NCBI GenBank assembly: GCA_902616075.1
Contig: CACMRK010000001.1
Location: 186,001 to 250,000 of the forward strand
DNA: 64,000 nt
Direction of reading: 5' to 3'
Source of the DNA: an uncultured Alphaproteobacteria bacterium
Lineage (GTDB): Bacteria; Pseudomonadota; Alphaproteobacteria; HIMB59; GCA-002718135
Part shown: one piece after another, positions 5,718 to 56,745 of the stretch
Numbering within the stretch: the stretch's first letter is position 1
How the letters are laid out: every line of letters begins with the position of its first letter
Position numbers and translations under genes: made by a program
The notes under the pieces: model-generated
Told to the model about the DNA's origin: nothing
Seen by the model: the letters and a program-made list of their open reading frames with translations, nothing else
The model's database searches: none

Positions 5718-6685
5718 TTAGTTAAATCTTTCCAAGTTTTTTTATCAATATTTGAGCCACACAATATCACCATTGTATTTTTGCCAATAAGCTTATTATT
5801 AATTTTATATTTTAAAGCAGCAAGTCCAGCAACACATGCGGGCTCAAGAAATAACTTAAATTTTTTATAACAAAAAACCATAAATTTTTTCATTTGATCA
5901 TCAGAAACAGTTACCATTTCATCAATTACTTCTTTTGCTACATCAAAAGAATATTGCATATGTAAAGGTGCTGAAAGGCTGTCAGCAATACTATTTACAT
6001 TAACATTATTTAGTGGTTTGTTAGCTCTTAAACTTTGATTTAAACCATTAGCATTTTCAGGCTCAACACCAATAATTTTAATCTTAGGATAAAATTGTTT
6101 TACATACGATGAAACGCCACTTATTAATCCCCCTCCTCCAACTGAAATTAGTAAATTGTCAATTTTAGTATTAATTAATTTTAAATATTCTACAATTTCT
6201 AATCCCAAGGTAGCACTACCTTGTAATGTCAATGGGCCGTCAAAAGGGTGAATAAAATAATAACCTTCATTTTTAGCATTTTCAGCATCAAGAAAAGCTT
6301 GTTTTGGATTTGTAAAAATAATGTTAGCACCATAATTTTTACAAGTTTGAACTCTATATTTATTTGCACTTTCGTATAAGAAAATTTTATTTTTCAATTT
6401 AAATTGATTGGCGACAAATGAAGCAGCGATCGCATGATTTCCAGCACTAACTGCTGTAATTCCTTTATTAAATTTATTCTGATCTTGAGAAATTATATTA
6501 TTAATAGCACCTCTTGCCTTAAATGAACCAGATTTTTGTAAAAATTCGCATTTAAAAAATAAATTTGTAGAAAAATAATTATCAATATCAACAGGACACT
6601 TTAAAAAAGGGGTTTGATTAATAAATGGTCTAATTTTTTTATAAATTTTACTAATATTATCGACAGATAAATCTTTAGGTATCAA
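5714..6685 (-). CDS. Threonine/serine dehydratase family PLP enzyme (or serine racemase)
   Basis: GSFKARGA PLP-lysine motif, SVGGGGLISG. Confidence 0.85.
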   Translation of the reverse strand: MIPKDLSVDNISKIYKKIRPFINQTPFLKCPVDIDNYFSTNLFFKCEFLQKSGSFKARGAINNIISQDQNKFNKGITAVSAGNHAIAASFVANQFKLKNKIFLYESANKYRVQTCKNYGANIIFTNPKQAFLDAENAKNEGYYFIHPFDGPLTLQGSATLGLEIVEYLKLINTKIDNLLISVGGGGLISGVSSYVKQFYPKIKIIGVEPENANGLNQSLRANKPLNNVNVNSIADSLSAPLHMQYSFDVAKEVIDEMVTVSDDQMKKFMVFCYKKFKLFLEPACVAGLAALKYKINNKLIGKNTMVILCGSNIDKKTWKDLTN

Positions 6686-7425
6686 GAAATTCCTCTAATT
6701 TCTTTAATTTTATCGTAAGCAATATTAATTGCCGCTAATTCTTTATTAGATTGTTTAATAAATTCTTTAGGCATACCTTTGGCAATTAAATTATCTGGGT
6801 GATGTTCTTTATTTAATTTTATCCATTTTTTTCTTATCTCATTATCAGTGCTTGATCGATTCACACCCAATATTTTGTAAGGATCAGATTCACTATTTTT
6901 TAAATTTGATTGAAAAATTCTTTGAAAATCTTTTTCACTAAATTTAAACGATTTAGAAATTGATCTTAAAAAATCTATTTCACTAATAGATACCTTTCCA
7001 TCAGATGCAGCAATATAAAATAAATTATTTAATAATTCTTCCAATAAAATTTTATTAGCTGAAAATAAATCTCCTACTTGATTTGCTATTTGTTTATAAC
7101 CATACGTATCTTTTTTTGCCTCATTGAATATTTTTGCAACTTTAGGAATTTCAGATTTTGGAACTTTAAATTTTTCTTTAAATGCTCTTATTTCATCATC
7201 TGATACAATGCCATCTGATTTAGCTAATTTTGCAGCTAGAATAATAAAACTTAATGTAAAAATTTGTTGTTTTTGATTATTATTTATTCGATTGAAGTTA
7301 AATGATGATTTTGATTTAGATCTTCTGTCAAAAGCACCACCAGCCATTACACCTAAGATAGCCCCTATAGGTCCTCCTAAAGCAAATCCTGCTGCTCCGC
7401 CTATAACTCTTCCCCAAATACTCAT
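6682..7425 (-). CDS. djlA: DnaJ-like protein with TerB-like domain (DjlA type)
   Basis: Gly-rich N-terminal membrane segment, TerB-like middle, C-terminal J domain (DPYKILGV...EHHPDN). Confidence 0.8.
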   Translation of the reverse strand: MSIWGRVIGGAAGFALGGPIGAILGVMAGGAFDRRSKSKSSFNFNRINNNQKQQIFTLSFIILAAKLAKSDGIVSDDEIRAFKEKFKVPKSEIPKVAKIFNEAKKDTYGYKQIANQVGDLFSANKILLEELLNNLFYIAASDGKVSISEIDFLRSISKSFKFSEKDFQRIFQSNLKNSESDPYKILGVNRSSTDNEIRKKWIKLNKEHHPDNLIAKGMPKEFIKQSNKELAAINIAYDKIKEIRGIS

Positions 7426-7670
7426 CTTAAAGTTTCAATTATGCCTTTTAATTCATTTATCTCATCTTGAGAAATTTTATTATCTTGATTCAGATCTATA
7501 ATTTGAAAGAGTAAATTTAATGATTGTTCAATTTCTTCATAGGAAATAACTCCATCATTATTTAAATCAACAAAATTAAAGTACATTTCTTCTTCTTCAT
7601 TTAATTCAGAAGAATATGCAATTGAAGAATATAAAAGTAAAAATAAAAAAAATATTTTTATCCAAACCAT
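7422..7670 (-). CDS. Small secreted EF-hand protein
   Basis: Signal peptide plus two EF-hand loops DLNNDGVISYEE and DLNQDNKISQDE. Confidence 0.75.
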   Translation of the reverse strand: MVWIKIFFLFLLLYSSIAYSSELNEEEEMYFNFVDLNNDGVISYEEIEQSLNLLFQIIDLNQDNKISQDEINELKGIIETLR

Positions 7671-7885
7671 CTATACATTCCTATAATACCTGCACCAGCG
7701 TAAAAAAATTGTAAAAACAATATTCCATTGTGTTTTAATTTATAGGCCCAGATTCCAATTAATACTGCTGATAGCAATAATAATGAAAAGCCAATAAATT
7801 CTAATCCAATGTTAAATGCAACTAGTAGGGAATAAAGGATTGCTGTAGTTACGCCAATCCATTCTAAAAGTTTGTTTGAATTCAA
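7658..7885 (-). CDS. Small multi-pass membrane protein, CBU_0592-like
   Basis: Hydrophobic 75 aa protein, tight overlap with neighbour. Confidence 0.55.
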   Translation of the reverse strand: MNSNKLLEWIGVTTAILYSLLVAFNIGLEFIGFSLLLLSAVLIGIWAYKLKHNGILFLQFFYAGAGIIGMYRWFG

Positions 7886-54317: not shown

Positions 54318-54363
54318 ATGGTCGGGGAGAAAGGATTCGAACCTTCGACCCCCTGGTCCCAAA
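54318..54363 (-). repeat. Exact 46-bp copy of the tRNA-Pro 3' half (candidate distal att site)
   Basis: ATGGTCGGGGAGAAAGGATTCGAACCTTCGACCCCCTGGTCCCAAA, identical to 55536-55581. Confidence 0.93.
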
Positions 54364-54392
54364 TTATATTAACACTAATTTTGAAATTATAA

Positions 54393-54425
54393 AAGACCTC
54401 AGAAACGCTAGGGTTCTGGGGTCTT
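54393..54425 (-). terminator. Strong hairpin near the left end of the tRNA-Pro element
   Basis: AAGACCCCAGAA-CCCTAGCGT-TTCTGAGGTCTTTT on minus strand (12-bp stem with one G-U). Confidence 0.65.
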
Positions 54426-54485
54426 AAGAAATATCTGTTATTTTCACTTTATTGTATTTTATTAAGTTTTATCAAACTAAGTAAA

Positions 54486-54512
54486 GAATTTAGTCTATCA
54501 CTAAGTATATCA
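54486..54512 (+). repeat. Paired AGTCTATCA/AGTATATCA repeats, 12-bp period (candidate integrase arm sites, left)
   Basis: GAATTTAGTCTATCACTAAGTATATCA; 22/27 identical to 55464-55490. Confidence 0.6.
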
Positions 54513-54513
54513 C

Positions 54514-54738
54514 TTACTTTGTATCTCTATAAAATTTTTTCCATTGATTTTTAGCTTCTTCTTCAGAAATATCTTCCCATAGTTCTGCAAGATGAGCTGG
54601 AATATATCTACTACATTTGGAACATTCATATTGTTGTAAAATACTCGACCAGGGATCATTTAGATCTGGATAGGTAGAGACACATAAATGAGATTTATAC
54701 TCAGTAGAGTTACATTCTGGACAAATAAAAGATTTCAT
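54514..54738 (-). CDS. Small zinc-ribbon protein, 74 aa
   Basis: CPEC...CSKC. Confidence 0.6.
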   Translation of the reverse strand: MKSFICPECNSTEYKSHLCVSTYPDLNDPWSSILQQYECSKCSRYIPAHLAELWEDISEEEAKNQWKKFYRDTK

Positions 54739-54915
54739 CTTTTCTCCTTTAGCGTTTTGTTTAGGGTCCCAGCAATTAGAGTATCTAAATCAGGACAATA
54801 CTTTATTAACAGATTTTATATATAATTTAAATGGCTATTATTTTTTTGTCTATTGTAAATTATTTTTTATATATTTATCAGTTGAACTGTATTTGGAACA
54901 AATAAATCTAGCCCT

Positions 54916-55356
54916 TTAAAAATCTTCTAGGTAATTATTTATATCATTACATACTAACAAATCACCTTCTATCCATGTACCTTCAAAATATGCACCATTC
55001 TCAATCCAATTTTTAGAAAATAAATCTGTATACAATGTTTGAAATTTTAAACTTCCTTCATGAATATCATTAAATAGTTTATCTTGGGATATATTCTCTG
55101 CACCTTTAACAAATCTTGTAGCGTGAGCTCTAAATTTGGTTGATAAATATTTAAGACCCTCAGCTCCTTCAGGATTCTGGTCTAACAAATGATCCCAACC
55201 AGTTGCATACAAACCTGCACATCGTTGAAGCGTATATAGAATTGTAGTGTGGTCATTCATATCTCTTTTTTCTAAAACATCCATTAGTGGTTTTAGCTCT
55301 GCAGAATGAAGATTTGAGCTAAATAAAAAAAAAGATATAAAAAATATCCTAATCAT
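54916..55356 (-). CDS. Secreted/periplasmic hypothetical protein, 146 aa
   Basis: N-terminal signal peptide (MIRIFFISFFLFSSNLHSAE), no family recognised. Confidence 0.6.
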   Translation of the reverse strand: MIRIFFISFFLFSSNLHSAELKPLMDVLEKRDMNDHTTILYTLQRCAGLYATGWDHLLDQNPEGAEGLKYLSTKFRAHATRFVKGAENISQDKLFNDIHEGSLKFQTLYTDLFSKNWIENGAYFEGTWIEGDLLVCNDINNYLEDF

Positions 55357-55463
55357 AATTTTTTATATCATATTTTAATTAAACGGACACCTAATGTACG
55401 ACTAGGTGTGCACATGATCAAAATTAAAGAAATACCTAGATAAATAAAAATCAAAAAAAATTA

Positions 55464-55490
55464 GAATTAAGTCTATCAAATAGTCTATCA
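55464..55490 (+). repeat. Paired AGTCTATCA repeats, 12-bp period (candidate integrase arm sites, right)
   Basis: GAATTAAGTCTATCAAATAGTCTATCA. Confidence 0.6.
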
Positions 55491-55536
55491 AATTCGTTTT
55501 ATGAAAAAGATAAATTATAAAAAAGGGCAGAAAACA

Positions 55537-55613
55537 TGGTCGGGGAGAAAGGATTCGAACCTTCGACCCCCTGGTCCCAAACCAGGTGCGCTACCAGGCT
55601 GCGCTACTCCCCG
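55537..55613 (-). tRNA. tRNA-Pro(TGG)
   Basis: CGGGGAG/CTCCCCG acceptor, anticodon loop TTTGGGA, GGTTCGAATCC T-arm, encoded CCA. Confidence 0.96.
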
Positions 55614-55693
55614 AAAAAATTTGTTATATTCATAAATAACCTAAAAACAATCTTTTATGTTTGTTTTCTAAAATAATATTTATTATAATTAAA

Positions 55694-55760
55694 CTAGGGG
55701 TGCTTAAATGCTGAGATTTATACCCTTTTAACCTGATCTGGATAATGCCAGCGGAGGAAA
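55694..55760 (+). promoter_or_regulatory. TPP riboswitch (THI element)
   Basis: GGGGTGC..TGCTGAGA..ACCC..ACCTGATCTGGATAATGCCAGCGGAGGAAA directly before thiB. Confidence 0.96.
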
Positions 55761-55761
55761 C

Positions 55762-56745
55762 ATGAAAACCATACTAATTTTTTTAACTACCTTATTTATT
55801 TCTTTCTCAATCTATGCAGAGAAACTAACTATATATACTTACGACTCTTTTGTATCAGAATGGGGTCCAGGACCCATCATTGAAAAAATATTTGAAGAAA
55901 AACATAATGCAGATGTAGAATTTGTTTCTGTAGACAGTGCCGCAACATTATTGAATAAAGTTATTTTAGAAGGTGATACTTCTACGGCAGATATAGTTTT
56001 AGGTCTTGATATGAATTTATTTGATTTAGCCGAACAATCTGAGCTTTTTACAACTCATAATATCAATGACATAAATAACTTAATTAATTTACCATTAAAA
56101 TGGGAAAGTAATAAATTTGTTCCATATAATTATGGATACTTTTCTTTTGTGTATAATAAAGCAAATTTAGAAACACCTCCAAAATCTATGGATGAGTTAA
56201 TTAATTCAACTAATGCTAGAATTGTAATTCAAGACCCAAGAACCTCTACCCCTGGTTTAGGATTATTAACTTGGATGAAAGCATTATATGGAGATAAAGC
56301 AGGGGATGAATGGAAAAAATTAAATAAAAAAATTATTTCAGTTACCAAAGGATGGACAGATGCATATTATAATTTTTTTATGGCAGGAGAAGCTGACATG
56401 GTATTAAGTTATACTACATCTCCAGCCGCACATATAATGTTTGAAGAAAGGTATGATATTCTTGCTACAACTTTTGAAGAGGGAAATTATATAACAATTG
56501 AATTTGCAGGCATTTTAAATAATTCACAAAATAAAGATTTAGCAAATAAATTTCTTAACTTTATGTTATCAAAAGAATTTCAATCAGTCATACCATCAAC
56601 AAATATTATGTACCCTGTTACAAATATAAAAGATTTACCTGAGGCATTTGATAAACTAGATGTTCCTAACTTTATTCAAATGGATCCAAAAGAAATTAAT
56701 AAAAATAAAGAAAAATGGATTGATGAATGGCTTAATGCCTCGTAA
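55762..56745 (+). CDS. thiB: Thiamine ABC transporter substrate-binding protein
   Basis: LTIYTYDSFVSEWGPGP, TPP riboswitch upstream. Confidence 0.92.
   Translation: MKTILIFLTTLFISFSIYAEKLTIYTYDSFVSEWGPGPIIEKIFEEKHNADVEFVSVDSAATLLNKVILEGDTSTADIVLGLDMNLFDLAEQSELFTTHNINDINNLINLPLKWESNKFVPYNYGYFSFVYNKANLETPPKSMDELINSTNARIVIQDPRTSTPGLGLLTWMKALYGDKAGDEWKKLNKKIISVTKGWTDAYYNFFMAGEADMVLSYTTSPAAHIMFEERYDILATTFEEGNYITIEFAGILNNSQNKDLANKFLNFMLSKEFQSVIPSTNIMYPVTNIKDLPEAFDKLDVPNFIQMDPKEINKNKEKWIDEWLNAS

Follow-up and report, generated by a model that had tools for sequence, protein, structure and literature searches.

Cis-mobilisable elements (CIMEs) of streptococci are described as decayed integrative and conjugative elements or integrative and mobilisable elements that have kept both attachment sites, attL and attR, and are moved in cis by accretion with conjugative elements (PMC5704250). 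Here we describe an element of 1218 bp, measured start-to-start between two identical 46-bp cores, at a tRNA-Pro gene of an uncultured marine alphaproteobacterium of the HIMB59 lineage. It lies in a stretch of 64,000 nucleotides (assembly GCA_902616075.1, contig CACMRK010000001.1, positions 186,001 to 250,000 of the forward strand), called the window below, and CIMEs are the closest known kind. Like them, the element keeps attL and attR (46-bp cores with arms), lacks integration and transfer genes, duplicates the end of its target gene and appears to rely on the integrase of another element. It differs from them in having a temperate phage as its apparent partner, in its small size (1.2-1.7 kb among such elements) and in that its ends are constant while the cargo changes.

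Other described systems share parts of this anatomy. Phage-inducible chromosomal islands (PICIs), phage-inducible chromosomal minimalist islands (PICMIs), P4-like satellites and phage-inducible chromosomal island-like elements are also small chromosomal insertions at fixed sites with a presumed dependence on phages. Phage satellites are said to require an integrase and excision factors of their own (PMC10803314), and the window element differs from PICIs and PICMIs in encoding no integrase, excision factor, primase or regulator. Tycheposons and virion-encapsidated integrative mobile elements are tRNA-associated, cargo-carrying marine islands (PMC10872708, PMC10803314), and the window element is likewise a cargo island bordered by tRNA sequence. 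Tycheposons are reported to measure 4-200 kb and to be accompanied by a tyrosine recombinase (PMC10872708), whereas the window element is far smaller and has no such enzyme. Additive flexible genomic islands likewise grow by cassettes added at a tRNA gene, with recurring tRNA-end copies in Methylophilaceae, and as far as the excerpts of those reports go they identify neither arm-type sites nor a matching phage attachment site (attP) as the mobilising partner (PMC4119200, PMC10872708). Miniature inverted-repeat transposable elements (MITEs) and clusters of attC sites lacking integron integrases (CALINs) resemble the element as non-autonomous DNA mobilised through recognised ends, as summarised in part of one review (PMC11389934), but other enzymes act on them; at this locus no transposition is involved and the expected enzyme is a site-specific phage integrase. 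The helper-dependent elements in that part of the review include integrase-less integron arrays and MITEs, and no tRNA elements of the present kind (PMC11389934).

Surveys of defence islands list many cases without a recognisable mode of mobilisation, and such cases are an open problem (PMC10121019). The locus described here offers a testable answer for one group of such islands, namely that an element may need no more than the arms and core of a phage attP when the enzyme comes from the phage. It also suggests a search route, in which island ends are matched to phage attP sites rather than an integrase gene being sought.

Probable arm-type repeat pairs and the attP of a viral contig

In attP sites of the lambda type, the core is flanked on both sides by short direct repeats, the P and P' arm sites, and the integrase gene adjoins them. 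The window element has the same arrangement of short motifs, two units on each side of the core, and differs in that its arms stand on an element without an int gene and in the unit itself, AGTNTATCA at 12-bp spacing. The features concerned are as follows, with the corresponding distances in L050 (viral contig IMGVR_UViG_3300030117_002203, see below) in brackets.

54318..54363, + strand: displaced 46-bp copy of the 3' half of tRNA-Pro(TGG); left attachment core and left end of the element (46/46 identity with 55536-55581)
54492..54500, + strand: putative arm-type unit AGTCTATCA, P' side, unit 1; 128 bp from the core (L050, 129 bp)
54504..54512, + strand: putative arm-type unit AGTATATCA, P' side, unit 2; 140 bp from the core (L050, 141 bp)
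55470..55478, + strand: putative arm-type unit AGTCTATCA, P side, unit 1; 59 bp from the core (L050, 60 bp)
55482..55490, + strand: putative arm-type unit AGTCTATCA, P side, unit 2; 47 bp from the core (L050, 48 bp)
55536..55581, + strand: right attachment core, identical to the left core; supplied by the element and forming the 3' half of the intact tRNA-Pro gene
55537..55613, - strand: intact tRNA-Pro (TGG) gene, the attachment target (ARAGORN; Rfam RF00005, 67.3 bits)

The left-core sequence is single-copy and uninterrupted in empty relatives (for example, L141 of genome G117). The right core can be assigned to the element since the GGCAGAAAACAT just before it is common to the attP of L050 and differs from the chromosome.

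The preliminary description of this DNA had reported two 27-bp blocks (54486-54512 and 55464-55490), 22/27 identical and in the same orientation, each with two units 12 bp apart start-to-start, and had likened them to integrase arm-type sites. The sequences, coordinates, orientation, spacing and identity were all reproduced exactly. The single 9-mer unit is not enriched in the window (7 observed against 4.0 expected), while the exact pair AGTNTATCA-N3-AGTNTATCA occurs in this genome only at the element, so it is the pair that matters. The whole assembly (1.05 Mb in 31 contigs, approximately 62% complete) holds two matches to it, both at the element, and none to a reversed-pattern control; the concern that the pair might occur at a background rate across the genome is thereby answered. 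None of 1000 dinucleotide shuffles of the element contained a block pair as alike or any exact motif pair. Among 100 related genomes, one other exact pair was found (L003; G084:C11:8902-8922, minus strand), with no tRNA within the surrounding 3 kb.

The viral evidence comes from one scan of 2.9 million viral contigs, for which the motif pair alone, without the tRNA, was the query. This returned 104 stretches, and L050, from a temperate phage, was the only one in which a regular-expression screen found a tyrosine-recombinase motif no more than 2 kb from the pair. L050 carries two pairs at a distance of 242 bp, and the 46-bp tRNA-Pro core lies in the interval. This arrangement immediately follows a tyrosine integrase gene (375 aa; PF00589, 9e-12; PHROG_1, 1.7e-25), and one of the pairs sits inside the 3' end of that gene. 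An excisionase-like gene is located just upstream of the integrase gene, an endolysin and other phage genes are present on the contig, and two short matches to Pelagibacter phages were found. The 21-bp pair on the P side of the window element is identical to an L050 pair, and all unit-to-core distances agree within 1 bp. In the alignment, similarity between L050 and the window spans arm, core and arm and is lost at the arms or shortly beyond them; by BLAST it continues beyond the P arm for approximately 15 bp, into the part of L050 that codes for the end of the integrase.

The same motifs in the same geometry are thus present at the attP of an integrase-encoding element with the same core. Since the pair surrounds the same core at matching distances in L050, it is very likely that the 27-bp blocks represent arm-type sites belonging to an attP, as the preliminary description had suggested. 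The pair had been at risk of proving absent from related integrase-bearing elements at this tRNA, and it stands beside the L050 integrase. The exact core is present in the family of the window genome and absent from all genomes sampled in the sister family and elsewhere in the class, which suggests that the host of L050 belongs to the same family. A single-sequence structure prediction of the L050 integrase was too poor to be used (predicted local distance difference test score, 42).

Cargo exchange, probable lateral movement and empty sites

Within the genus, 76 of 102 genomes contain the core, three of them twice, and one more double case was found in another genus of the family. The element family considered here comprises four cases, a small sample, and no integrase lies within any of them. 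In the window element, the only open reading frames (ORFs) are the two listed here with the conserved left end, and neither integrase nor transfer genes are present.

54364..54515, + strand: conserved left end (P' arm side), common to the elements of AG-891-E15 and AG-414-E06 and to the attP of L050 (alignment)
54514..54738, - strand: cargo ORF of 74 aa, C-x2-C zinc-ribbon-like; Pfam zinc-finger matches weak and below the cut-off
54916..55356, - strand: cargo ORF of 146 aa with a signal-peptide-like start; distant homologues (21-41% identity) in 11 genomes of the family

Searches against Pfam, PADLOC and PHROG gave no confident family match for either protein, and a search for residual phage structural or replication genes gave no PHROG match to the two ORFs at E <= 0.01.

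The second case, in the single-cell genome AG-891-E15 (G135), is a 1677-bp element at the same locus. Its ends are 99.5% (left) and 96.7% (right) identical to those of the window element and both arm pairs are identical, while its cargo consists of a T5orf172/GIY-YIG-type protein matching the candidate defence family PDC-S57 (1.9e-69) and a 239-aa protein without matches. The two elements agree over approximately 150 bp at the left end and 160 bp at the right end and are unrelated in the middle; the constant ends therefore frame a cargo slot.

The third case, AG-414-E06 (G146), belongs to another genus and carries a 1708-bp element (L164, about 5969-7722) that encodes a methyltransferase (phrog_799, 2.4e-49) together with a 223-aa protein of no known family, possibly a nuclease. 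Over window positions 54318-54513, identity is 99.5% to AG-891-E15, 95.4% to AG-414-E06 and 79% to L050. Because the left end of AG-414-E06 is 95.4% identical to the window where its chromosomal tRNA-thi flank is 75% identical, its acquisition by lateral movement is the best explanation of the comparison. The right-end units of this element are AAAATAACA and AGCATAACA, 12 bp apart, and it is apparently a mosaic of two attachment systems.

The fourth case is a 6161-bp island at the same tRNA-Pro in G133 (L138; G133:C19, 3980-10186) with a complete-looking type I restriction-modification system. Arm-like units AACATAACA are found at both its ends, 57/45 and 95/106/120 bp from the core; they are diverged and have a similar layout. 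Two further candidates, G149 and G150, were rejected as contig-end overlaps, and MT121960 (H54) contained nothing of an integrase element.

Insertion at tRNA-Pro is clean and polymorphic, as seen from the empty sites. In the sister genome G117, flanks 97-98% identical to those of the window enclose a single uninterrupted tRNA-Pro site, and G147 and G148 are likewise empty for the AG-414-E06 flanks.

An integrase hidden in the element, or a devoted one elsewhere in the genome, was considered and rejected. The window assembly has one PF00589 gene, whose 365-aa product is also encoded by most members of the genus and is therefore presumably a housekeeping Xer recombinase. The sole PF00589 gene of AG-891-E15 is of the same genus-wide type, and the G133 assembly has none. 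Where members of the genus carry integrases elsewhere and a tRNA was present in the fetched stretch, the neighbouring gene is for Arg, Gln, Leu or Gly. We found no integrase-bearing chromosomal element at tRNA-Pro in the relatives; such an attP was seen only on the phage contig L050.

Proposed mobilisation by a phage integrase and competing explanations

From these comparisons, we consider it probable that the window element is a CIME-like cargo cassette framed by a phage-like attP and devoid of an integrase, and that a co-resident temperate phage of the L050 type supplies the integrase and excisionase for its integration and excision. The N-terminal domain of such an integrase would bind the AGTNTATCA pairs and bend the DNA, and the enzyme would recombine the two 46-bp tRNA-Pro cores so that the element circularises. 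In the resulting attP of approximately 240 bp, with the junction GGCAGAAAACAT-core-TTATATTAACAC, the two blocks would serve as the P and P' arms, and the phage excisionase would aid removal of the element. Recombination could take place in trans. It could also occur in cis, with the phage inserting next to the element and the two being excised jointly in the manner of CIMEs (PMC5704250). Phage particles could carry the element DNA between cells.

Movement in trans, which the preliminary description had proposed, agrees with the lack of an integrase in all four elements, the swapped cargo, the spread across genera and the empty sites. This support is indirect, and cis accretion with a phage is another possible route.

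Several points weigh against mobilisation by an L050-type phage. The evidence comes purely from sequence. L050 is a 10.8-kb metagenomic fragment whose host is deduced from the core only, and a search of 163 genomes of the order, which had no positive control, found no L050-like integrase. At approximately 62% completeness of the window's own assembly, a helper prophage could be missed. In AG-414-E06 the P' arms have decayed and the right end belongs to a different type, so not every member keeps intact sites. Packaging of a 1.2-kb circle is hard to account for.

This last difficulty disappears if the arms are real and the element moves only together with an adjacent L050-type phage, excising from the outer sites as a composite circle, as a passenger of 1.2-1.7 kb adds little to a phage genome. 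The anatomy is that of CIMEs, with attL and attR kept in the absence of integration genes and movement by accretion (PMC5704250). L050 itself has a single core, and neither a phage-element tandem nor a phage contig with cargo between two cores was seen, although the one viral scan barely tested this; we regard exclusive movement in cis as a possible but doubtful account. We think it unlikely that the ends are an inert relic, left by a prophage whose interior was deleted and kept by chance while ordinary recombination replaced the cargo. The similarity of approximately 15 bp past the P arm runs into the 3' end of the L050 integrase gene, which makes it probable that the ends derive from an ancestor with an integrase, and the decayed P' arms of AG-414-E06 would suit a relic. 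Yet the window and AG-891-E15 elements keep both arm pairs and their geometry around wholly different cargo, the left end of AG-414-E06 is far closer to the window than its flank is, the sister genome G117 is cleanly empty, and none of the four elements retains any further phage gene.

A regulatory role for the repeats, as operators or similar sites that lie near both ends by coincidence, is very improbable. Direct repeats can bind regulators, and the right end of two elements also has an inverted repeat, but the L050 pairs flank an att core at nearly the same distances, with one of them inside the integrase gene, and the diverged arms of G133 keep a similar layout. Chance resemblance between two AT-rich repeats, to which the commonness of the single 9-mer might lend some weight, is refuted at the sequence level by the shuffles, by the restriction of the pair to the element in 1.05 Mb and by its independent recurrence in a phage attP, and we give it practically no credence.

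Mobilisation by a phage of the L050 type can be extended to a broader proposal, to which we assign about even chances. Mobile cassettes of 1-6 kb in streamlined marine bacteria would be mimics of a temperate phage attP with interchangeable, mostly anti-phage cargo, spread by phage integrase and excisionase; they would, in effect, be satellites reduced to an attachment site. This suggests how streamlined genomes that seldom contain prophages could still exchange defence genes.

Additional features of the ends and neighbouring sequences

Two further features were mapped within the constant ends.

54393..54425, strand not assigned: terminator-like hairpin, retained in the elements as well as in the phage attP, with a T-run after it on the minus strand (RNAfold)
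55377..55461, strand not assigned: element-specific segment inside the right arm pair, with the inverted repeat ACACCTA-N9-TAGGTGT at 55387-55409 (pairwise alignment)

The predicted energy of the hairpin is -18 to -22 kcal/mol in the phage, the window and AG-891-E15. The right-hand segment, approximately 85 bp, is kept in AG-891-E15 despite the different cargo and does not align to the phage except in its last 7 bp or so, phage similarity at the right end starting at 55455. A possible role for it is as an operator, an origin or a packaging signal.

Two other viral contigs, L018 (181-372) and L068 (3608-3766), contain runs of AGTCTATCAAGT spaced 12 bp apart; these form two clusters separated by 126 bp, with no tRNA core or recombinase motif nearby. 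Beside the tRNA-Pro gene, a thiamine pyrophosphate (TPP) riboswitch was identified at 55686-55776 (RF00059, 63.9 bits), upstream of a gene for a thiB-like substrate-binding protein.
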